From the NCBI GenBank assembly GCA_030695025.1, contig JAUYTX010000033.1:1-48594 (forward strand): 48,594 nt of DNA, written 5' to 3'. The position numbers and the translations under genes were made by a program. How positions within the stretch are numbered: the first letter of the stretch is position 1; each line of letters starts with the position of its first letter. Of the stretch, positions 6,980 through 48,400 are shown one piece after another. The notes below the pieces were generated by a model. That model ran no database searches, was not told the origin of the DNA, and saw only the letters and a list, made by a program, of their open reading frames with translations. This DNA is from Bacteroidales bacterium (lineage in GTDB: Bacteria; Bacteroidota; Bacteroidia; Bacteroidales; UBA932).

Positions 6980-7480
6980 ATGACATCTCAGGAGTTTAAC
7001 ATATTGGTTGGGAAGCTAAGGCCAAGGCTGATTCACTTTGCAAATGGGTTTGTAAAGGGAGGTGCTGCCACAGCCGAGGATATGGTGCAGGAGGCAGTCA
7101 TTAAGTTGTGGCGATCCAATGAGTTGCAAGAGATAAGAAATCCCGAGGCCCTTACAGTGCAAATACTGAAAAACGTATGCCTCGACTATATTAAGCTCAA
7201 AAAGAACAATATGGAGGCATTGAATCCAAACTTTAGAGTTTATACAGAGAATGACCCATCTGTGGCACTTGAGAGCAAAGATGAGATGTGTAATATAAAC
7301 GGCTATCTCGCCCAACTTCCCGAAGATCAGATGTTAGCGATAAGACTACGGGATATTATGGGTTATGAAATGGAGGAGATTGCACACATACTGGGAACAA
7401 CCGAAGGAAATGTGAGAACTCTTCTTTCGAGAGCCCGCCAGAGACTAAGAGAAAAATTAATGTCAAAATGGAAACAATAG
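6980..7480 (+). CDS. ECF sigma factor (sigma-70 family)
   Basis: RNA polymerase sigma factor of 166 residues, the usual ECF length. Region 2 is near residues 8-55 with DMVQEAVIKLWR in region 2.2/2.3. Region 4 is near 112-162 with the helix-turn-helix GYEMEEIAHILGTTEGNVRT followed by LLSRARQRLREKL. There is no extra C-terminal domain. The stop overlaps the start of the next gene, which looks like its membrane-bound anti-sigma factor, so the pair is translationally coupled. The downstream DUF4252 and barrel genes are probably its main operon-mates and perhaps targets. The stimulus is unknown. Confidence 0.93.
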   Translation: MTSQEFNILVGKLRPRLIHFANGFVKGGAATAEDMVQEAVIKLWRSNELQEIRNPEALTVQILKNVCLDYIKLKKNNMEALNPNFRVYTENDPSVALESKDEMCNINGYLAQLPEDQMLAIRLRDIMGYEMEEIAHILGTTEGNVRTLLSRARQRLREKLMSKWKQ

Positions 7481-8010
7481 ACAGAAAAAGAGCCGGAGAT
7501 CTTTTGGAAAGATACTTCGAAGCTCAGACAACACTTCAGGAGGAGCAGCTGTTGAGAGAATATTTCTCAGGAGCAAATATTGCCCCTGAACATGCTGTTT
7601 ACACGCAGATGTTCTGCGCCTTTGCAGAAGAGCGCGAGATGCTGAATCTGACTACCCGGAACTTTTCTGCAGAAGATAAATTTACCATAAATAGCAATTC
7701 AAAAAAATTCCACTTCAGATGGATGTCTATAGCAGTAGCTGCTGCCCTGGCAATCTTTGCATTTCTTATGATGCCAGAGAGAGGAGACTCTCTGAAACTT
7801 ATAATTGACGGAGTAAATGTAAAAAACAGAGAGCTTGCGCTTAGCAAAGCCGATATACATATGGAACAGTTAAACTCAATGCTTGGAAGATTTCGTGACG
7901 GGAGCACCAAACAAATTGACAATATGAATAAAATGGGAGATGCTCTTTCATCTTTTAAATCTTTTAACAAAATTTTGACACAAACGACGGTATCTGATCG
8001 TCTTGAATAA
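7468..8010 (+). CDS. Putative membrane-anchored anti-sigma factor
   Basis: A 180-residue protein whose start overlaps the end of the ECF sigma gene by 13 bp. It has a cytoplasmic N-terminal helical region (GDLLERYFEAQTTLQEEQ, near 10-27) typical of the short anti-sigma heads found behind Bacteroidota ECF factors. One transmembrane helix lies near 85-102, followed by a periplasmic tail of about 75 residues rich in Met, Asn and Lys. No zinc-binding HxxxCxxC motif is present. The anti-sigma role is inferred from position, topology and overlap rather than from a strong domain match. Confidence 0.65.
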   Translation: METIDRKRAGDLLERYFEAQTTLQEEQLLREYFSGANIAPEHAVYTQMFCAFAEEREMLNLTTRNFSAEDKFTINSNSKKFHFRWMSIAVAAALAIFAFLMMPERGDSLKLIIDGVNVKNRELALSKADIHMEQLNSMLGRFRDGSTKQIDNMNKMGDALSSFKSFNKILTQTTVSDRLE

Positions 8011-8058
8011 CAGAAGACTTCTGAAAGAATTAGAAATATTTTAAAAAAATTACTGATA

Positions 8059-8550
8059 ATGAAAAAGGTTTTAATAATAATGTTTGTTGCGCTGCTCTGC
8101 CCTTATTTAGCAGCTGCTCAGGCGAAGCAGATACACCTTATTCTTGATAAATACGAAAAGAGAAAAAAGGTTGAATCAATAATTATCTCACCGTCAGTGC
8201 TACAGATGGCAGGTAACGGAAACTACGATGCCTCAACTAAGGAGTTGCTGTCTAAAATAAGTGAGATGAGAATAGTAAACGTGAAAGAGGGCGCTGAACA
8301 AAATGGAACTCCATTGAAAATAATAATCCGGAGTGATCTTGACAAGGTTCTTACCGGAGAGAGATTCTCAAGAGTCCTAAAAATGCAGGAAGGAGAAGAA
8401 CTTCTGGAGCTGTTTGTTACCAAAAACGAAGAGGGGGTTCTGGTTTTCCTTGCCACTAGTCCTAAAGAGTTTGCCATAATCTCAATATTCGGCAATATTG
8501 ACAAGAGTGTAATCAATGCTGTGATGACCGGTGGTATTAAGGTTAAATAA
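8059..8550 (+). CDS. DUF4252 domain-containing exported protein
   Basis: A 163-residue protein with a clear Sec signal peptide (MKKVLIIMFVALLCPYLAAAQ). The mature part matches DUF4252, with short strands and helices such as VESIIISPSVLQMAG near 37-51 and a C-terminal IISIFGNIDKSVINAVM. DUF4252 genes commonly follow ECF sigma/anti-sigma pairs in Bacteroidota, as here (48 bp after the anti-sigma gene). The biochemical function of the family is not known. It is likely periplasmic, since no lipobox Cys is seen. Confidence 0.85.
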   Translation: MKKVLIIMFVALLCPYLAAAQAKQIHLILDKYEKRKKVESIIISPSVLQMAGNGNYDASTKELLSKISEMRIVNVKEGAEQNGTPLKIIIRSDLDKVLTGERFSRVLKMQEGEELLELFVTKNEEGVLVFLATSPKEFAIISIFGNIDKSVINAVMTGGIKVK

Positions 8551-8605
8551 CCAAACAGCTAATAAACTAATTCAATAATTTCAAAAAGAAAAATCAGACA
8601 AGAGT

Positions 8606-9415
8606 ATGAAAAAGATAATCAGGACTGTTTTTGCAGCAATAATATTACCGGTAGCTCTGCTATTAATCCACACCCAGGCTGCTTCACAAACAGTCGTTAA
8701 AATAGGAGAGGCCGAGATTGCTATCCAGTCTCCAATAAGCATAAAGAAAAAAGAGACTCCGGCTAATGTCAATGAGCGTGATGTTTCATTTGGGAGATCT
8801 GACAGATTTGGCGTGACTAAGTCGAAGCATTATCCAAGAAGCTACGAAGATTTTTTTGTAGGCATTGCAATGGCGGTTCCACTCAGAAATCAGGAGTACC
8901 TGCCCATGCATTACGGCAGCTCACATAGCATTGAGGTTGGATTCAAATATTTTTATCGTCCGGCAGCAAGATATGCAATAGGCACTTTATGGCAGTACAG
9001 TTTTTACAACTATAAACTAAAAGATGCAGCAGCAAATGAGACTTTTGTAAGCAATGTTCCGGGAGAGATTCGCTCAGAGTCCTTTAGGACAGACAACCTT
9101 GGTACCGGCATCATTAACAGATTCTATCTTTTCCCAATGCAGAACAAACCTTTCATGCTGGATTTAGGCGGATATGTAGACTTCTCTTACAGTAAGAGAT
9201 ATCATGTTAAGACTATTGAAAACGGAAAAGACACAAAACATAAATACAGAGACGGATCAAAATTCAACCCAATTCAGGCCGGGCTATATGGAGCCATAAC
9301 AAAGGGATCCTACTCATTGTTTGCAAAATACAGGTTGACCAATCTGTTTAACCCGGATGCTATTCCATTGGAGTTACCAAGATTAAGCATGGGAGTACAG
9401 ATCTCTCTTGATTAA
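8606..9415 (+). CDS. Small outer-membrane beta-barrel-like protein, last gene of the sigma operon
   Basis: A 269-residue protein with a signal peptide (about 1-28, ending near AASQT). The rest alternates aromatic and polar residues in strand-like stretches, for example YPRSYEDFFVGIAMAVPLR, RYAIGTLWQYSFYNYKL and GLYGAITKGSYSLFAKYRL. The final residues are SMGVQISLD, which does not give the classic C-terminal Phe. No named domain is recognised. The position, 55 bp after the DUF4252 gene on the same strand, suggests that it belongs to the ECF regulon. It could be a sensor or a target of envelope stress; both are guesses. Confidence 0.65.
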   Translation: MKKIIRTVFAAIILPVALLLIHTQAASQTVVKIGEAEIAIQSPISIKKKETPANVNERDVSFGRSDRFGVTKSKHYPRSYEDFFVGIAMAVPLRNQEYLPMHYGSSHSIEVGFKYFYRPAARYAIGTLWQYSFYNYKLKDAAANETFVSNVPGEIRSESFRTDNLGTGIINRFYLFPMQNKPFMLDLGGYVDFSYSKRYHVKTIENGKDTKHKYRDGSKFNPIQAGLYGAITKGSYSLFAKYRLTNLFNPDAIPLELPRLSMGVQISLD

Positions 9416-9980: not shown

Positions 9981-10634
9981 TTACTCCTTAGTTTCGGTTG
10001 CCTCTGCAGCGGGAACTTCTCCCTCTGAGCTTTCGGTAGCGGTTTCGGCTACTGGTTCGGCTACTGGTTCAGCTACTGGTTCAGCTACGGTTTCGGCAAC
10101 TGGCTCAGCTACTGGTTCAGCAACGATTGCAGCAGCAGATTCGGCAGCAGATTCAGCAGCAGCCTTTTCGGCCTCTACTCTCTTCTTCTTAGCAATCTCT
10201 TCTGCTCTTGCCTCTTTTACTTTGGCTTCTGCCTCAATAACAGCCTTCTTTGTGTTGCGGCTATTTTGTGCAAGATCAGATTTTTTTGCACTAACTTTTC
10301 CCTCTTTCTCGTTTACCCAGTCATTCCATTTCTGGTCTGCTACCTCTTGAGTGATTGCGCCTTTCTTAACTCCTTCCTGAAGGTGTTTTCTTAAAAGAAC
10401 ACCTTTGTAAGAGAGAATTCTGCGGCAAGTGTCAGTAGGTTGAGCACCGTTCATTAACCATTGAAGAGCACTGTCGTTATTGAGCTCGATGGTTGCAGGG
10501 TTAGTGTTTGGATTGTAAGAGCCGATACGCTCTATAAAACGACCGTCGCGAGGAGCGCGACTGTCTGCGATAACAATGTGAAAGAATGCGAAATTCTTTT
10601 TACCATGTCTGGCCAGACGAATTTTAACAGCCAT
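9981..10634 (-). CDS. rpsP: 30S ribosomal protein S16 with long Ala/Glu/Pro tail
   Basis: The first 80 or so residues are a normal S16 ([20 protein letters not shown], then [18 protein letters not shown]). The protein then continues to 217 residues, more than twice the E. coli length. The extension begins with a Lys/Glu/Ala helix-prone stretch (about 105-165) and ends in V-A-E-(P/T) repeats (about 170-200) with a final acidic tail. Tailed S16 is common in Bacteroidota, but the repeat run is notable. The -7 element TATATTTG upstream gives a leader of about 55 bases containing a small palindrome. rpsP and rimM form one operon. Confidence 0.95.
10035..10126 (-). repeat. Tandem 12-bp coding repeats in rpsP tail
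   Basis: About seven units resembling GCTACTGGTTCG (plus-strand reading) encode repeated V-A-E-P/T. In-frame slippage would lengthen or shorten the tail without breaking it. Confidence 0.85.
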
Positions 10635-12737: not shown

Positions 12738-14894
12738 CTATTGTAAAGGTTTAACTACCTCAATAAGTTCAGGAAGATCCATTCCAATCTTCTGAAGGTG
12801 TTCAATTTTTGGAACTCCGTTTTTGTTCCATCCTCTTCTGAAGTAGACAGCATCAAGAAGTTTTTCGTATTGGTCTTCACGGTGTTCTCTTAACCTGGAC
12901 ATCTTCTGTTCAAGAGTAAGCTCTTCGGGATTAATTCCAAGAATTTCACTCAGTTGTTTGTCATATCTCTCCTGACGGCTAAGGTACTCCTCCTGAGTAA
13001 CCGGGCCTGCAGCTCTGTACGGTTGAGCATCATACTCTCTTGTGCCAAAGCCGAGACGTATGTTGAATATCTTCTGGAAGTTGTAAACTCTTTCCGACAT
13101 TCTTATCATCTCCTCCTTGTCAAATTCGCGCCCGGTAACCGCTTTAAATATTGTCACATAGTTGTCTACGTGTTCAGGAACCTTGTTTGGTTCCGGCTGC
13201 TGCGCATTGTCGGCAGGCTCGATGTCGTTCCAGCATAGTTTGCAGAAACCTGCAAGACCAAACCATGTTCTGAAGTAAGGGAAGTAGTGTAAAGCTTCGG
13301 CTTTATTTTCAAAGGTAGGAATCATGTTATTAACCATGTCCATGAAAATAAGCCAGGCTTCGTCGTGCTGCGGCCCTTTGTTGGTCATTGCGTATCCTCC
13401 CTGTTGTGCAAGTGACTCTTTAGAGAGGTACATCGAATATTCCAGACCTTTGTTCTCCATTGCAATATCATTGATGAATTTTGAGTCACCCCAGTTATTA
13501 TCAATAAACATTTTTTTCAGGCGCATAACTCCCAATCCGGTAGTAACTCCAAAACCTTCTCCGCGAGCCATTTGATGCAATAACTCAAGTGAAGCATCAG
13601 CATTTCCCCAGGTAAGATCAACTCCTCCGGTTCTCTCTGCATTTAGAATTCCGTTATCCCAGCACTCCATAAGGAAACCCACTATGTTGCCCCAGGTAAT
13701 TGTACATACACCGTAAGTATCGCAGTAAAAGTTCTGTTCGATAATGGCCAATGGGTCAAAAATGGCAAGGTTTGATCCCAGTGCTGCAGCATTTTCATAC
13801 TCAGGACCGTCAACAATTACTTTTGATCCTTTATATGGTCCTGTACGAAGTTCGAAATTATCAACCCCTTTTGCGCAGGACATATTACAGCCTATCCAGC
13901 AACCGTCAGGAACTCCCTGGGTAAAGTATTTTTTCCAAACCTCCATGTCTATTTTCGGACAATCTTTATGGTCACCGTACTTAAAGTTCATTACGGGAAG
14001 GATGTCATATTTTTCAAGAACGCCCATCAGGTGAGCAGTTCCAAGCTGTTTCATCTGGCACTGAATATCATCCAGTTCTCTCATCTCTTTATTGAATCGC
14101 TTTCCCCTCTCCATTATTGGTTCCAACTCGGCAACATTGTTGAAATTACCTGTAACTTTAGGTACTTTGGCAACAATTGCTCTTACACCTTTTTGTCTCA
14201 TAAGGGTTCCAAGTCCTCCGCGTCCTGCCTGCTTGAGCCTTACCTTTCCACGCTTCATATCGTAGAATGTAAAGTTTAACATTCCAATCAATGAGTGCTC
14301 GGCAGCTTTGCCTGAGGCTACAACAGAGACATTAATTTTATCTTTCTCACTATCTGCGAACATCTCCAGAAGCTCTTCACCCAACAGGTGTGAATCGTAG
14401 CTGAGCCCTTGAGGAGTTTCAAAAATCTCAACTTTATGATCTGTACCGTTGATGAATACTATAACATCTTTGTCAGATATACCCTGCAATTCAAGAGCAT
14501 CAAATCCGGCAATTTTCAGGTGCGGGCCAAAGTGACCTCCAACATTGCTGTCAATAATCTTCTCTGTCTGAGGTGATATGGCCACAACTATCGACTTTCC
14601 GGCACCGGAGTACTGAGTTATGCCGCAGCATGGACCTCCGGAGATGACAATCTCATTCTCAGGGTCGCTCCACTTTGTGTCAGGCTTAACTGCATCCCAG
14701 AGCATACGAAGTCCGTAACCTTTGCCACCGATAAATTTTTCTTTAGTCTCTGGGGCAATATCTCTGACCTCAATTTTGTTGTTACCCACATTTACATACA
14801 GACTGACATCGCTGTACCCTTTATCCATTGGTTTCCATGAATAGGGGGCCGATGCAATAATTTTTCTGTTGTTTTTAATCTCCTGCAAGTTCAT
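12738..14894 (-). CDS. Tungsten-containing aldehyde:ferredoxin oxidoreductase family protein
   Basis: 718-residue member of the AOR family, which oxidises aldehydes to acids (or the reverse) using a tungsten bis-pterin and one [4Fe-4S] cluster, with ferredoxin as partner. N-terminal pterin-contact features include IGGKGYGLRML (55-65), ISGGPCCGITQYSGAGKS near 84-101 and GRGGLGTLMRQKGVRAI near 224-240. Cluster cysteines are Cys332, Cys336 and Cys340 (CWIGCNMSC) with a distal Cys551 or Cys554 (GFCKLCWND). The first spacing is C-x3-C where the P. furiosus enzyme has C-x2-C. The gene heads an operon with the VanX-type lipoprotein and PHP phosphoesterase, and diverges from ThiF/ThiS-like genes. It is cytoplasmic, with no signal peptide. 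The substrate is unknown. Confidence 0.93.
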   Translation of the reverse strand: MNLQEIKNNRKIIASAPYSWKPMDKGYSDVSLYVNVGNNKIEVRDIAPETKEKFIGGKGYGLRMLWDAVKPDTKWSDPENEIVISGGPCCGITQYSGAGKSIVVAISPQTEKIIDSNVGGHFGPHLKIAGFDALELQGISDKDVIVFINGTDHKVEIFETPQGLSYDSHLLGEELLEMFADSEKDKINVSVVASGKAAEHSLIGMLNFTFYDMKRGKVRLKQAGRGGLGTLMRQKGVRAIVAKVPKVTGNFNNVAELEPIMERGKRFNKEMRELDDIQCQMKQLGTAHLMGVLEKYDILPVMNFKYGDHKDCPKIDMEVWKKYFTQGVPDGCWIGCNMSCAKGVDNFELRTGPYKGSKVIVDGPEYENAAALGSNLAIFDPLAIIEQNFYCDTYGVCTITWGNIVGFLMECWDNGILNAERTGGVDLTWGNADASLELLHQMARGEGFGVTTGLGVMRLKKMFIDNNWGDSKFINDIAMENKGLEYSMYLSKESLAQQGGYAMTNKGPQHDEAWLIFMDMVNNMIPTFENKAEALHYFPYFRTWFGLAGFCKLCWNDIEPADNAQQPEPNKVPEHVDNYVTIFKAVTGREFDKEEMIRMSERVYNFQKIFNIRLGFGTREYDAQPYRAAGPVTQEEYLSRQERYDKQLSEILGINPEELTLEQKMSRLREHREDQYEKLLDAVYFRRGWNKNGVPKIEHLQKIGMDLPELIEVVKPLQ

Positions 14895-14924: not shown

Positions 14925-14940
14925 TTGGTAAATTTACAAA
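14925..14940. promoter_or_regulatory. Palindrome in the divergent AOR/thiF-like gap
   Basis: GTAAATTTAC at 14928-14937 is a perfect 10-bp palindrome, extended to an imperfect 16-bp one by flanking TT/AA. It contains TAAATTTA, close to the TAnnTTTG -7 element, 30 bp before the ATG at 14967. It could be a shared operator or simply promoter sequence. Confidence 0.35.
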
Positions 14941-14966
14941 AAAATGATAGCCTAACAACCCGATTT

Positions 14967-15557
14967 ATGCCAACATTTAACCAAATTAAGGCAATTCTTT
15001 CTCAAAAGACAGTAGGAATTGCAGGAGCCGGAGGATTGGGCTCCAACTGTGCAGTATCCCTGATAAGATCAGGTGTAGGAAAGCTAATTGTTGCCGACTA
15101 CGACAGAGTCTCTCCGGAAAACCTTAACAGGCAGTTCTATTTCAGAAAGCAGTCAGGTATGAAAAAGGTTGATGCACTTAGGGAGAATCTGCATAAGATT
15201 TGTCCCGGGTGCTTGTTGCAGATGCACGATACCTGGGTAACAAAAGAGAATATTGATCTTCTTTTCTCGGTTTGCGATGTTGTGGTTGAGGCTTTTGACG
15301 AAGCAGAACAGAAGAGTATGCTTATTGAATATATGCTTACTAATCTTCCTGATATTCCGCTTGTTGCCGCTTCCGGAATGGCGGGGTTCGGGAGGACAGA
15401 GCTAATTAAAATTGTACAGTCGGGTAATCTCTATGTTTGTGGTGACGAAGAGAGCGAAATTTCAGAAGAGAACCCGCCACTTGCTCCAAGGGTGAGCATT
15501 GTTGCAAATATGCAGGCAGATATTGTTCTTCAGTTGCTACTGAAGGATGCTTTTTAA
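14967..15557 (+). CDS. thiF: ThiF-family E1-like adenylyltransferase (sulfur-carrier activating)
   Basis: ATP-dependent enzyme that adenylates the C-terminal Gly of a ThiS/MoaD-type carrier. About 196 residues, matching the short 'family 2' ThiF proteins. It has the nucleotide-binding GIAGAGGLGSN, the NRQFYF and KKVDALRENL segments, VVEAFDEAEQK, and the C-terminal PLAPRVSIVANMQADIVLQLLL block. Zinc CxxC pairs of MoeB/long ThiF are absent. I prefer the ATG at 14967: the only in-frame start further up is a TTG at 14925 lying before the likely -7 element. The next gene encodes the carrier. Divergence from a tungsten oxidoreductase suggests a role in pterin or sulfur supply for that enzyme, but thiamine synthesis is the annotated role of the family. 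Confidence 0.85.
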   Translation: MPTFNQIKAILSQKTVGIAGAGGLGSNCAVSLIRSGVGKLIVADYDRVSPENLNRQFYFRKQSGMKKVDALRENLHKICPGCLLQMHDTWVTKENIDLLFSVCDVVVEAFDEAEQKSMLIEYMLTNLPDIPLVAASGMAGFGRTELIKIVQSGNLYVCGDEESEISEENPPLAPRVSIVANMQADIVLQLLLKDAF

Positions 15558-15789: not shown

Positions 15790-16866
15790 TTATCCATTAA
15801 CATCCTCTTTTCCGAAAATATCTAGTTGTTGCCTTACCGACTCCTCATGAATAGCCTCAAGGACTGTTCTGATGAACTCTTCGTTTACCAGAAGTTCAGA
15901 AGCCTGAGCAATACGGCGGTTTACAGTATAGTCATATCTCATAGGCTGTAGAACCGGCATGTTGTGCTCAACCTTGTATCGCCCAATCTCTCTGGATATT
16001 GCCATCCTTTTTGAGATCAGGTCAAGAAGTCTCTCATCAACTTCGTCCATCTCTCTTCGGAGTTCATTCAGTCTCTCTGTTGAGTCAACAGTATCTCTTA
16101 TAACCAAAGCTTTAATAATTGAATTGAGTGTATAAGGGGTAATCTGCTGCTCTTTATCACTTAACGCAACAGACGGGTTAATGTGGGTCTCAACCATGAG
16201 TCCGTCAAATCCCATATCCATAGCCTGTTGTGAGATTGGGTAAATTAATTCAGGCCTCCCTCCAATGTGGCTTGGGTCGCATAATATTGTCAGTGAAGGG
16301 ACTCTTCTTTTCAGTTCAATTGGAATATGCCAATGGGGGAGATTTCGAAAGAGCCCTTTTTCGTATGTACTAAACCCTCTGTGCACAGCAGCAATGTTTG
16401 TTATCCCACTGTTCATGAGCCTCTCTACTGCTCCCAGCCACAATTCCGGATCGGGGTTCACCGGATTTTTTACAAGCACCGTAACATTGGTTCCTGCCAG
16501 AGAGTCCGATATCTCCTGCACAGCAAATGGGTTTGCTGTTGTTCTTGCCCCGAGCCATAAAATATCTACCCCGGCTCTTAGGGCCATCTCAATATGTTTT
16601 GAGGTGGCAACTTCGGTTGCGGTTAACATTCCCGTCACCTCTTTAACCTCTTTTAGCCATTCAAGGCCTCTCTCTCCAACACCCTCAAAACCACCTGGTT
16701 TTGTCCTTGGTTTCCAGATACCTGCCCTGAAAATTTTAACGCCGAATGATGCAAGTTCTGAGGCAGTCTCCAGTGTTTGTTCCCTGCTCTCGGCACTGCA
16801 TGGTCCTGCAAGAATAAGAGGTTTTTTAAATGACTCTCCCTTTATGGTAAGATTTTTGATGTCCAT
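15790..16866 (-). CDS. Bifunctional DAHP synthase / chorismate mutase (AroQ type)
   Basis: Shikimate-pathway enzyme combining 3-deoxy-7-phosphoheptulonate synthase (about 1-260) and a C-terminal AroQ chorismate mutase (about 265-345), 358 residues in all. The synthase half is of the KDO8P-synthase-like type: LILAGPCSAES, FRAGIWKPRTKPGGFEGVG, IAAVHRGFSTYEKG, LCDPSHIGGR and MVETHINP. The mutase half has LNELRREMDEVDERLLDLIS, RMAISREIGRYK and a C-terminal helix. The order synthase-mutase is the usual Bacteroidota arrangement and probably allows feedback control through prephenate. A near-match -7 element (TATATTTC, minus strand 16888-16895) lies about 20 bp upstream of the ATG. Confidence 0.95.
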   Translation of the reverse strand: MDIKNLTIKGESFKKPLILAGPCSAESREQTLETASELASFGVKIFRAGIWKPRTKPGGFEGVGERGLEWLKEVKEVTGMLTATEVATSKHIEMALRAGVDILWLGARTTANPFAVQEISDSLAGTNVTVLVKNPVNPDPELWLGAVERLMNSGITNIAAVHRGFSTYEKGLFRNLPHWHIPIELKRRVPSLTILCDPSHIGGRPELIYPISQQAMDMGFDGLMVETHINPSVALSDKEQQITPYTLNSIIKALVIRDTVDSTERLNELRREMDEVDERLLDLISKRMAISREIGRYKVEHNMPVLQPMRYDYTVNRRIAQASELLVNEEFIRTVLEAIHEESVRQQLDIFGKEDVNG

Positions 16867-16950: not shown

Positions 16951-18015
16951 GTGATTAAGTTTCGTACACTTGCAGTTCTTGTAATTGCTCTATTTATTGC
17001 AGGAGGCTGCAAATTTTTTGGTGCTGACGCATTTAGTGGGAGTACCCTCGTCTGGGAATCAGGTGCAAACAACTATTTTAACAGAGAAAAACCGACTTCT
17101 CTCCCATTTATCGGAAAGATACTTGTAACCGGTGAGGTAGTGAAGGATCAGTTTATAAATACGTCAGGGATGCCATGGCACTCTGTTACAATTAAAGAGT
17201 ATTCTCCATCTGCCGACTCTATGAAATTTGAAGGAGCCTTCAGATATGACGGGTATGCACTTTGTGATATATTAAGCACAGTTAAGGTAAATAAACTCTC
17301 AAAAGATGATTTCTACCCCCCGACTGACCTCTACGTTGAGGTTTGGAACAACAAGGGAGAGTACGTGGTCTTTAGCTGGGGTGAGATCTTTTACTCGGCA
17401 GACCCATACAAGATTATTATGGCAAAAAGTGTCTCAAGGGTTATTCCGGGAAAAACCGGCGAACTTTGGGCATTGCCAAAGGAGTCAAAGATTATTGCCG
17501 GGAACGATCTTGTGACAGTCAGAAACATAAGTGATCCAATTAAGATTGTAATTAAATCACTTAAGGGAGATTTTAAGGTAGAGAGAGAGCCTGCAAACTT
17601 TACTTCGGGTAAACTGGCTTTTGCAATAGACGGTGATCGGAATGCCATTAGGGAGATTACGGAGTTACCTTCCAGTTTACCGGAGATTTCTAGTCGAAGC
17701 GTATATTATGGTCAAAGCATGGGATATAAGGGAGAGAAGATGTTTACCGGAGTAGACTTTAGCCTGGTAATGAAGAGTGTTTTTCCTGCCGACCCTTCAA
17801 TTTTCAAAAATGCAATTGTTTGTATTGAGGGGATTGATGGTTACAGGGCTGCGTTCTCATTTTCTGAAATAGTAAACAGAAGCGATAGCAGAGAGCCTCT
17901 TCTTATGACAAACGGTTCGGAGAAGGGTAGAGAGGGCTTTTCTCTTTTTTGCAGGGGAGATATGTTTGCTGACAGAGCAGTTAAAGGTTTGAGCAAGATT
18001 ACAATCATGAGATAA
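16951..18015 (+). CDS. Lipoprotein with two tandem sulfite-oxidase-fold-like (molybdopterin-domain-like) repeats
   Basis: 354-residue protein starting at GTG; an in-frame TAA six bases upstream rules out an earlier start. The signal ends in a lipobox, LFIAGGC (Cys20). The mature part looks like two degenerate copies of the molybdopterin-binding domain of sulfite oxidase/YedY proteins. Copy one (about 50-205) has GKILVTGEVV, YDGYALCDIL, VVFSWGEIF and a closing ISDPIKIVIKSL. Copy two (about 215-354) has LAFAIDGDRN, FTGVDFSLVMKSVF, IDGYRAAFSFSEIV and a closing VKGLSKITIM. The Cys ligand for the metal is not recognisable, so an enzyme role is doubtful. It sits 14 bp before a tungstate-binding lipoprotein and is probably co-transcribed. 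The domain call is by eye; the function is unknown. Confidence 0.6.
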   Translation: MIKFRTLAVLVIALFIAGGCKFFGADAFSGSTLVWESGANNYFNREKPTSLPFIGKILVTGEVVKDQFINTSGMPWHSVTIKEYSPSADSMKFEGAFRYDGYALCDILSTVKVNKLSKDDFYPPTDLYVEVWNNKGEYVVFSWGEIFYSADPYKIIMAKSVSRVIPGKTGELWALPKESKIIAGNDLVTVRNISDPIKIVIKSLKGDFKVEREPANFTSGKLAFAIDGDRNAIREITELPSSLPEISSRSVYYGQSMGYKGEKMFTGVDFSLVMKSVFPADPSIFKNAIVCIEGIDGYRAAFSFSEIVNRSDSREPLLMTNGSEKGREGFSLFCRGDMFADRAVKGLSKITIMR

Positions 18016-18029
18016 ATTAAAGGAAATTT

Positions 18030-18959
18030 ATGGGAACTGTTCGAAAAATCGCTTTTCTTGTCATGTCAATTGTGTTAATTTACAGTTGCCATGGTAGAAA
18101 AGTTGCGACAGATTCCCAGGGATTAAATGGTAATCTTGTAATTTTCCATGCTGGCTCGCTTGCAATGCCCTTTAAAGCCATTGCCGACTCTTTTATGAGA
18201 ATAAATCCGGGATTGAAAGTTTTAAACGAGGCATCCGGAAGTATTGATGCTGCCAGAAAAATCACTGAGCTCAATAGGGAGTGCGATATAATGGCCTCTG
18301 CAGACTATGCAATTATTGACAAAATTCTTATCCCACGGTACGCTTCTGAAAACATACATTTTGCCGCCAATGAGATGGCTCTGGTTTATACATCAAAGTC
18401 ACGCTATTCCGGAGAGATTGATTCTGTGAACTGGATTGACATCCTGGCAAAGGACAAAGTCTTTACAGGCAGATCAGATCCGGATGCCGATCCGTGTGGT
18501 TACAGAACATTGCTGACTCTTAAGCTGGCTGAGATTTATTACGGTGATGCCGGCCGGAGTGACATGCAGGCCCTGACTCAAAAAATTTTATCAAAATCAG
18601 AGAGGTTTATCAGGCCTAAAGAGGTTGATCTGCTTGCACTTCTTGAAACAGGCGCTGTTGACTACATTTTTCTTTATAAATCGGTTGCAGTGCAGCACAA
18701 CTTGGAATTTCTAGCACTGCCGGCTGCAATAAATTTGGGTGATCCGCAAATGGCCGGCTATTACTCTCAGGTAACAACAGAGGTAAGAGGGGCAAAGCCC
18801 GGAGAGAAAATCAGCATTACGGGAGAGCCAATGGTTTATGGAATAACCATTATAAATAATGCCCCCAACAGAAGAGCTGCGGAGGCATTTATTGAATTTT
18901 TGCGGTCAGATGAAGGTGGAAAGAAAATTCTGATGCAAATGGGACAGAGTCCACTCTGA
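18030..18959 (+). CDS. wtpA: WtpA-type tungstate/molybdate-binding lipoprotein
   Basis: Periplasmic solute-binding protein of the WtpA/ModA group, 309 residues, with lipobox Cys20 (LIYSC). Family features are VIFHAGSLAMPF near 33-44, a following NEASGSIDAARKITEL, MASADYAIIDK, FTGRSDPDADPCGYRTL and DYIFLYKSVAVQHNLEFLALP. The archaeal and bacterial WtpA proteins bind tungstate or molybdate with very high affinity. An AAAGGA ribosome-binding site precedes the ATG by a few bases, uncommon in this window. No permease (WtpB) or ATPase (WtpC) follows: the next gene is convergent. The transporter must be encoded elsewhere or this protein works without one. It is paired with the tandem sulfite-oxidase-like lipoprotein upstream. 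Confidence 0.85.
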   Translation: MGTVRKIAFLVMSIVLIYSCHGRKVATDSQGLNGNLVIFHAGSLAMPFKAIADSFMRINPGLKVLNEASGSIDAARKITELNRECDIMASADYAIIDKILIPRYASENIHFAANEMALVYTSKSRYSGEIDSVNWIDILAKDKVFTGRSDPDADPCGYRTLLTLKLAEIYYGDAGRSDMQALTQKILSKSERFIRPKEVDLLALLETGAVDYIFLYKSVAVQHNLEFLALPAAINLGDPQMAGYYSQVTTEVRGAKPGEKISITGEPMVYGITIINNAPNRRAAEAFIEFLRSDEGGKKILMQMGQSPL

Positions 18960-46777: not shown

Positions 46778-48400
46778 CTATGCAACCTGTTTTTTTATAA
46801 AAAAGATGATTATTTCAGTTGAGCCATTGATTCTTTGTTGAAAAAGCAGATTTTGAGGTCTATTATTGTCAATATTGAGCACCTTGCCGGCATATTTTCT
46901 TAGATTATGTGCTAATGCAATAAGTCCGAACTCTACTGATACTTTAGGGAGCGTTTTTAACATAAATCGTTTGAAGCCACAATTGTATTTGATCTGTCCG
47001 AATACAGCTTCGGGCTCAATTGGCCTTTTACTTCTGTGAATTAGTCCCTTTTCGCTGGTCAATAACTCCCTTACGAGTTGCTTTTGTTTCATCAGGTTGA
47101 GGTTAGCTTCGTAAATTCTGTTCCCTTTTGCTTTTGTACACACACCCTTGATAGGACATCTGGAACAGTCTTGTGCCATATATATGCGATATTCTCCAAT
47201 ATATCCATTTTCACTTTTTCTTTGTCTTTTCCCTATATATGTCATGTGCTGGCCCATTGAACACACAAAGTAGTCGTCATGACTGTTATAGTATGGGATC
47301 GGTAGTTTATATGCATCTGACGGTCTCTTTCTTTCTTTTCTAATATCCATATGGAAGTAGTTGTACTTGACATATGGCACTATCTTGTTTTCAAGCATAT
47401 AATTGTAATTCTGTTCACTACCGTATCCGGAGTCTGCTACAATTTCCTTGCTTTGACGATGGTATTTTCTGTCGAAAGATTCCAGGTAGTCGATCAATGT
47501 TGTTGTGTCGCCTGGTTTCTGGTATATGCCATAGTGGGTGATGTACTGGTTTTCTGTGGATATCTGAACATTATAGCCCGGTTTTAGCTGACCATTTCCC
47601 ATATAGTCCTCCTTCATCCGCATGAATGTGGCGTCCTGATCTGTCTTCGAGTAGCTCCCTCTTTCCTGAAGTATCTCTTTATGTCGCTCGTACTCCTTAA
47701 TCTTCGGGAGACTTTCTTTACTTATTTTCTTGATTTCCTTCTGAATTTCTGAAGGGACCTTTTCTATCTTTTCTACAATATTGTCCAATCTGCGCTGGAA
47801 TTCTTCAGTATTCATCCCAACGGTTGTTCCAATCTGCTCCTCCTCTGATGAGATAACCTTTTCAGCCTGTCTTAGAACGAGATCAACTTTAGTTTTAAGC
47901 CTTTCATCATATTTGTCAACAGCCCCTTTCCAAACAAAAGTGTACTTGTTCGCAACAGATTCGATTTTGGTCCCGTCAATATATTGAACATCAAGAGTAA
48001 CTAACCCTTCGCGATGGATAAGTTCAACAACCTGAGTGAAAATCCTCTCGAAGTCTCCATTAAGCCTTTGCGCCCGGAACAGATTCAATGTCCTGAAGTC
48101 CGGTGTAGAGTATCCTGAAAGCCACATATAGATGATATTTTCTTTTAGTTGCTTCTCTATCTTTCTCCCTGAAAATGTATTGCACATATATCCATAAACA
48201 AGAACCTTGATAAGCATCCTTGGATTGTAGCTTGATGTACCGCCTCCCTTGTACTTGGACTCTATTGAACTGATGTCAAGATGGTCTATGACGTTGCTAA
48301 CTATTCTTGCAGGATGTGTCGGAGGAACCAGGTCTCCCAATGATGGAGGTAGAAGTAATGAATCGTTCTCTTTGTAAGATTTATAGATTACCTTTGCCAT
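46778..48400 (-). CDS. IS1182-family DDE transposase
   Basis: 540-residue, apparently intact transposase. N-terminal domain LPPSLGDLVPPTHPARIVS (about 17-35). Catalytic acids are Asp142 in YIDGTKIES, the second Asp in VADSGYGSEQNY, and Glu in EPEAVFGQIKYNCGFKRF. A CSRCPIKGVC cysteine cluster lies shortly before the last catalytic residue. The ATG at 48400 leaves about 190 bases of non-coding element to the right repeat, which contains the likely promoter. No frameshift is seen. Confidence 0.94.
   Translation of the reverse strand: MAKVIYKSYKENDSLLLPPSLGDLVPPTHPARIVSNVIDHLDISSIESKYKGGGTSSYNPRMLIKVLVYGYMCNTFSGRKIEKQLKENIIYMWLSGYSTPDFRTLNLFRAQRLNGDFERIFTQVVELIHREGLVTLDVQYIDGTKIESVANKYTFVWKGAVDKYDERLKTKVDLVLRQAEKVISSEEEQIGTTVGMNTEEFQRRLDNIVEKIEKVPSEIQKEIKKISKESLPKIKEYERHKEILQERGSYSKTDQDATFMRMKEDYMGNGQLKPGYNVQISTENQYITHYGIYQKPGDTTTLIDYLESFDRKYHRQSKEIVADSGYGSEQNYNYMLENKIVPYVKYNYFHMDIRKERKRPSDAYKLPIPYYNSHDDYFVCSMGQHMTYIGKRQRKSENGYIGEYRIYMAQDCSRCPIKGVCTKAKGNRIYEANLNLMKQKQLVRELLTSEKGLIHRSKRPIEPEAVFGQIKYNCGFKRFMLKTLPKVSVEFGLIALAHNLRKYAGKVLNIDNNRPQNLLFQQRINGSTEIIIFFIKKQVA

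Follow-up and report, generated by a model that had tools for sequence, protein, structure and literature searches.

How scarce tungsten crosses the outer membrane of anaerobic Bacteroidota is, to our knowledge, an open question. It arises here from a lipoprotein gene that lies immediately upstream of the gene for a tungstate-binding lipoprotein in a Bacteroidales genome: what does such a protein do beside a tungstate binder? The gene is found in the window (the whole stretch of DNA that was analyzed, 48,594 nucleotides), which comes from a genome that is about 91% complete. We use the label TSL for this open reading frame (Table 1).

Gene content of the TSL locus

Table 1. Positions of TSL, its parts and other features of the window (window coordinates).
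Feature	Position	Strand	Description	Basis
Ribosomal protein S16-like ORF (presumed)	9981-10634	-	long repetitive tail rich in Ala/Glu/Pro/Val	
Aldehyde ferredoxin oxidoreductase (AOR) family enzyme	12738..14894	-		PF01314
ThiF/MoeB-type adenylyltransferase	14925..15557	+		PRK08644 and TIGR02354, above cut-off
DAHP-synthase-like ORF (presumed)	15790..16866	-	between the ThiF/MoeB-type gene and TSL	
TSL	16951..18015	+	lipoprotein, 354 aa, GTG start; two predicted tandem sulfite-oxidase (SUOX)-fold domains	
TSL signal peptide	16951..17010	+	to lipobox Cys20	sequence
Predicted SUOX-fold domain 1 of TSL	17080..17592	+	approximately residues 44-214	whole-protein model; profile match
Predicted SUOX-fold domain 2 of TSL	17593..18012	+	residues 215-354	own model, Foldseek, profile match
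WtpA	18030..18959	+	tungstate/molybdate-binding lipoprotein, 309 aa, ATG start	TIGR03730
Transposase-like ORF, IS1182 type (presumed)	46778-48400	-	at the contig end	

The start codon of WtpA follows the stop codon of TSL after 14 bp. WtpA scores 300.1 bits against TIGR03730, above the cut-off of 242.75, which agrees with the preliminary description of a tungstate-binding lipoprotein at this distance. It also matches solved archaeal tungstate/molybdate binders (E values of 4e-67 to 2e-62), and the stretches DPCGYR and RPKE.DLL, which we take to carry the metal ligands, are common to WtpA and the two archaeal binders displayed in full. WtpB and an adjoining ABC ATPase are encoded on a different contig of the same genome, and that contig also carries presumed MoaA-, MoaC- and MOSC/MogA-like genes.

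On the other side of TSL, the AOR-family enzyme is the sole PF01314 match in the window's genome; the protein has 718 aa, compared with 604-653 aa for the solved AOR-family chains listed. Scanning for promoters and terminators produced a signal little above that of shuffled controls. No TonB receptor was seen near TSL in the window, and the best TonB-receptor match in the genome, an incomplete assembly, has 32% identity over residues 23-254, with no close copy present.

The fold of TSL and its single-domain cousins

Scanning the 354-aa protein against Pfam and NCBIfam returned zero families at E values up to 1, including PF00174, whose cut-off of 24 bits TSL does not reach. Because the family models are silent, the presence of two domains was tested by structure modeling and profile comparison. 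The AlphaFold model of TSL, based on an alignment of 32 relatives, has a pLDDT of 83.0 and a pTM of 0.81, and both of its halves run through an identical series of 12 secondary-structure elements (E E E E H H E E H E E E). When this model was compared with the PDB by Foldseek, the top 12 matches all had the SUOX fold (best E value 1.9e-4, probability 0.99) and comprised sulfite dehydrogenase, sulfite oxidase, a nitrate reductase fragment and PruR, with alignments that span both domains reaching a TM score of only about 0.3 at an rmsd of about 16. Domain 2 modeled alone (pLDDT 82.7) had PruR (7kom) as its top match with an E value of 2.2e-4, the sole match at E ≤0.001, and the TM score against a further PruR structure (7kp2) was 0.59/0.60. 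The top ten matches of domain 2 were PruR and sulfite oxidase, the SUOX chains having TM scores of 0.62-0.67 on the query, and an unrelated fold appeared at rank 11 (E 6.5e-3). No SusD chain occurs among the 50 listed Foldseek matches of either the whole-protein or the domain 2 model.

Profile comparison agrees with the repeat. The two halves of TSL align with each other at an E value of 2.3e-5 (0.0025 with a shallower alignment), where each profile-profile E value refers to one pairwise comparison and not to a database search. PF00174 is the commonest weak match among the TSL relatives (8/32, best E 5.5e-4), and it was seen in one of ten order-level relatives with 13.7 bits; a PF00174 search of the window's genome found no match. 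A profile of 25 TSL relatives searched against PDB sequences retrieved two RTX proteins only, both at chance level (E 0.67 and 1.1). As modeled, TSL is two SUOX-fold domains in tandem, a fold that in enzymes usually accommodates the molybdenum-pterin cofactor. The preliminary description had proposed two degenerate copies of this fold, and the fold search bears it out for the whole protein and for domain 2, as do the repeated 12 elements and the alignment of the halves.

The relationship of TSL to SUOX-fold proteins was traced through shorter proteins of the same class. PF00174 matches were present in 24 of 149 class-level genomes, and nine of the ten matches scoring 30-41 bits, in frames of 200-226 codons, formed a set of single-domain proteins (loci L169-L177). 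These proteins of Bacteroidia are short, carry a lipoprotein-type signal and exceed the PF00174 cut-off. They match the profile of tandem TSL with E values of 2e-8 to 7e-5 in this small set. In profile comparisons, domain 1 of TSL aligns with them at E 1.7e-9 over 89 columns and domain 2 at E 8.4e-10 over 70 columns, and they in turn match groups of SUOX and YedY proteins from the same class (E 1.7e-5 and 6.9e-5, respectively). Direct matches of the TSL halves to the SUOX or YedY groups are weak (E 0.004-0.036), and the link to the fold therefore rests on the single-domain cousins together with the models. A profile of the cousins found no match among PDB sequences. Judging from these alignments, TSL most plausibly arose from a single-domain SUOX lipoprotein by duplication and divergence.

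The two groups differ at the metal-ligand Cys. This residue, located in the motif VVCQSG, is kept in all nine single-domain proteins, whereas its position is occupied by Tyr253 in domain 2 of TSL (Tyr in 101/101 aligned TSL relatives) and falls in a gap of the sequence-only alignment in domain 1. The lipobox Cys is present in 71 of the 77 TSL relatives that have a letter in that alignment column, and no other invariant or near-invariant Cys was found among 32 TSL members, so the absence of a metal-ligand Cys, which had been suggested at the outset, was upheld. Besides Tyr253, the conserved residues of TSL include R299, N309, R310 and D312.

The genomic setting of the single-domain lipoproteins is partly shared. 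As with TSL, TonB-receptor and ModE-like genes occur beside them (in 8/9 loci), and Moa/Moe matches lie near two of them; unlike for TSL, neither WtpA nor WtpB was matched in any of the nine single-domain stretches examined. The cluster of a ModE-like gene, a TonB receptor and a Cys-bearing PF00174 lipoprotein (L169-L177; wider stretches, L184-L192) may represent a molybdenum uptake locus of Bacteroidia that has no name as yet.

Gene partners of TSL in relatives

Within the family, the TSL gene was detected in 31 of 199 genomes, and wtpA adjoins it in 30/30 loci; the 31st match is fragmentary and provided no locus. Named genomes, largely the same organisms and hence an overlapping set, were scanned as well and provided 33 close loci, all of them with WtpA, 30 with ThiF and 28 with AOR. 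Each of the five loci lacking AOR reaches a contig end on that side. Homologs thus do occur beside WtpA. Among the close loci, AOR (approximately 65-98%) is more strongly conserved than TSL (46-97%).

In three loci of two genera, TSL and WtpA are fused in frame. The fusion in L034 has 631 aa and is 97% identical to that in L036, while the fusion in L059, from the other genus, has 633 aa and is directly followed by wtpB. None of the junctions retains a WtpA signal peptide. In L034, two genes that we take to be an AbiE-type toxin-antitoxin-like pair (7336-8738, minus strand) separate ThiF from the DAHP-synthase-like gene. Further partners appear around the close loci: nine of them have a ModE-like sequence in the interval from TSL to WtpA, six have a TonB receptor downstream of wtpA, and matches to WtpC, WtpB, MoeA, MoaA, MoaC and MogA follow in 11/33. 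The ModE-like sequence and WtpA share a single open frame of 420-492 codons in L037, L043, L044 and L045, which is either a fusion or a frame with a start inside it.

At the level of the order, 73 of 393 genomes contain the TSL gene, with one match each and one genome holding it in two pieces. A WtpA match (E ≤0.001) was found in 71 of these 73 genomes and is missing in the other two, compared with 53 of the 320 genomes without TSL; the Fisher value of this co-occurrence, 3e-41, ignores shared descent and is not readable as a probability. The 53 genomes with WtpA but without TSL indicate that TSL is dispensable for tungstate uptake as such.

The neighborhoods of 69 of the 73 order-level matches were examined, excluding the window's own genome, G030 and two contig-end fragments. 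Each of the TonB, ModE and Wtp genes was identified by means of a single query protein (E 1e-5 or 1e-4). In the following counts, some 'TonB' or 'WtpC' labels may therefore denote other members of large families, and some receptors may have escaped detection. Three ModE-like proteins that were scanned reached 68 to 96 bits in TIGR00637, below its cut-off of 98.5, and are therefore termed ModE-like only; for three scanned TonB receptors, the best models were those of haem, B12 or siderophore receptors, all below cut-off. In 47/69 loci, TSL has a TonB receptor, WtpA or WtpB on the same strand at a distance of no more than 300 bp, and WtpA, WtpB, WtpC, ModE or TonB occurs anywhere in the stretch in 58/69. 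The TonB receptor is within 300 bp in 29/69 loci, invariably upstream, and 15 more TonB matches are located elsewhere in the stretches. Considering the nearest same-strand neighbors within 300 bp (n=69), the arrangements are TonB-TSL with no downstream partner (20 loci), WtpA-TSL-WtpB (12), TonB-TSL-WtpB (6), TonB-TSL-WtpA (3), three others (2 each) and no such neighbor (22). The gene orders around TSL vary and the partners are retained.

The remaining 11 stretches, some of them short contigs, had no match to WtpA, WtpB, WtpC, ModE or TonB (L088, L091, L095, L098, L105, L119, L122, L140, L143, L145 and L151). Separately, TSL has an internal stop in the match or is split in two pieces in L089, L143 and L153.

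Beyond the order, three of 296 genomes in a phylum sample matched: the window's own genome, one from a different class with a copy of nearly full length, and one with a single-domain protein. The copy in the other class (L196) is part of a run of genes on one strand, wtpA-wtpB-wtpC-TSL-moeA-moaA-moaC-mogA, and AOR and ThiF matches are found close by. No TSL relative was detected in a scan of viral contigs.

The partnership of TSL and WtpA is beyond chance. A mere accident of neighborhood is ruled out by the co-occurrence in 71/73 genomes, the varying gene orders and the fusions.

A candidate role in tungsten acquisition

From the fold, the lost ligand and the neighbors, we argue that TSL is a binding protein and not an enzyme. 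It probably belongs to tungsten/molybdenum uptake, as an unrecognized part of tungsten acquisition in Bacteroidales. The fusions also bear on its location: with TSL and WtpA on one polypeptide and no second signal peptide, TSL would reside with WtpA in the periplasm, from which we infer that it faces this compartment. Surface lipoproteins of Bacteroidota bear an acidic signal after the Cys. In the 71 countable TSL sequences, the five positions after the Cys contain no acidic residue in 37, one in 32 and two in 2. The earlier view of TSL as surface-anchored is therefore not supported.

There is, in our estimate, about an even chance that TSL captures a periplasmic tungsten species and hands the metal to WtpA. 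A tungsten species would reach the periplasm, in many relatives through the TonB receptor encoded just upstream, and the two SUOX-fold domains would serve as the binding module that captures it. TSL would then contact WtpA, to which it is sometimes fused, and pass the metal on, and WtpB and the ABC ATPase would import it, here chiefly for the nearby AOR-family enzyme. The hand-over itself is conjecture, and so is the ligand, which may be either tungstate as such or a tungsten complex that is pterin- or catechol-like. The TonB receptor upstream of TSL in many relatives suggests a cargo larger than free tungstate, and the SUOX fold points to a ligand that is a chelate or resembles a pterin. Since the window's genome lacks a close receptor copy and yet has TSL beside WtpA, the WtpA side would be the constant part. 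A bolder version, which we regard as rather unlikely, is that the receptor imports an organic Mo/W compound, possibly pterin cofactor that has been released or a look-alike chelate, which the SUOX-fold lipoprotein binds via its old pterin pocket before WtpA takes the metal.

ModABC, WtpABC and TupABC are the prokaryotic Mo/W transporters named in the accessible excerpt of a comparative study (PMC6147048), which describes Mo/W transport as ABC transport and names no subunit beyond the transporter. TSL would be an extra component on the WtpABC route; WtpA adjoins it, and WtpB and the ATPase are encoded elsewhere in the genome. Searches of the open-licence literature brought up no case of a lipoprotein with the SUOX fold that serves the uptake of tungstate or molybdate.

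The closest comparison is with PruR (PDB 7kom, 7kp2 and 7kos). The available portion of PMC13259868 presents PruR as a non-catalytic periplasmic SUOX-fold pterin binder without the metal-ligand Cys. It is a single domain of about 170 aa in which Trp takes the place of that Cys, and it signals to c-di-GMP enzymes through a partner protein, the c-di-GMP regulator DcpA. TSL is like PruR, so far as it is described there, in its SUOX fold, missing metal-ligand Cys, secretion and protein partner, and PruR is the top structural match of domain 2. It is unlike PruR in its second domain, its lipid anchor and its partner, a tungstate binder, and also at the Cys place, with Tyr in domain 2 and a gap in domain 1. 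The neighbors identified for TSL are Wtp, ModE-like and TonB genes. The novelty claimed for a non-catalytic use of the fold accordingly stands in part: its use in metal uptake is unreported in that literature, but a non-catalytic SUOX fold as such is already known from PruR (PMC13259868, as excerpted).

This precedent, in which a Cys-less SUOX fold works via a partner, together with the top rank of PruR for domain 2, favors the idea that TSL is a PruR-like sensor that carries no metal, binds free periplasmic pterin and, through contact with WtpA/WtpB or the TonB receptor, adjusts import to the supply of cofactor. We consider such a sensor unlikely, as PruR has a single domain and Trp where domain 2 has Tyr, and the fusions with WtpA fit transfer at least equally well. 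Somewhat less likely again, TSL could be a cell-surface lipoprotein that caps the TonB receptor and captures substrate outside, as SusD does for SusC. Like SusC/SusD pairs, many relatives have a TonB receptor gene followed by the lipoprotein gene (directly upstream in the 29/69 order-level loci), and the single-domain cousins come after TonB receptors in 8/9 loci; however, TSL has the SUOX fold, is fused in some relatives to a periplasmic binder, has scarce acidic residues after the Cys and is retained in the window's genome with neither a receptor nearby nor a close receptor copy. Least probable is that TSL holds a Mo or W pterin cofactor via other residues, acting as a periplasmic enzyme or in cofactor maturation: the SUOX fold of the whole model and of domain 2, the Cys and PF00174 scores of the single-domain cousins, and the cofactor genes near TSL in 11/33 close loci and in L196 would agree with it, but the lipobox Cys is the only conserved Cys of TSL, Tyr invariably replaces the ligand in domain 2, and the halves match the SUOX/YedY groups only weakly.

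Returning to capture and transfer of tungsten, we rate TSL as a new component, surprising in its fold, of a known transport route. As TSL is tied to a tungstate binder by position, co-occurrence and fusion, the question of how tungsten passes the outer membrane becomes testable. A role in uptake would show Cys-less SUOX folds working outside PruR signaling. If the path from TonB receptor through the SUOX-fold lipoprotein to WtpA is true, the fold of a cofactor enzyme would have been turned into a metal-acquisition module in Bacteroidota, which would possess a dedicated tungsten path from the outer to the inner membrane.
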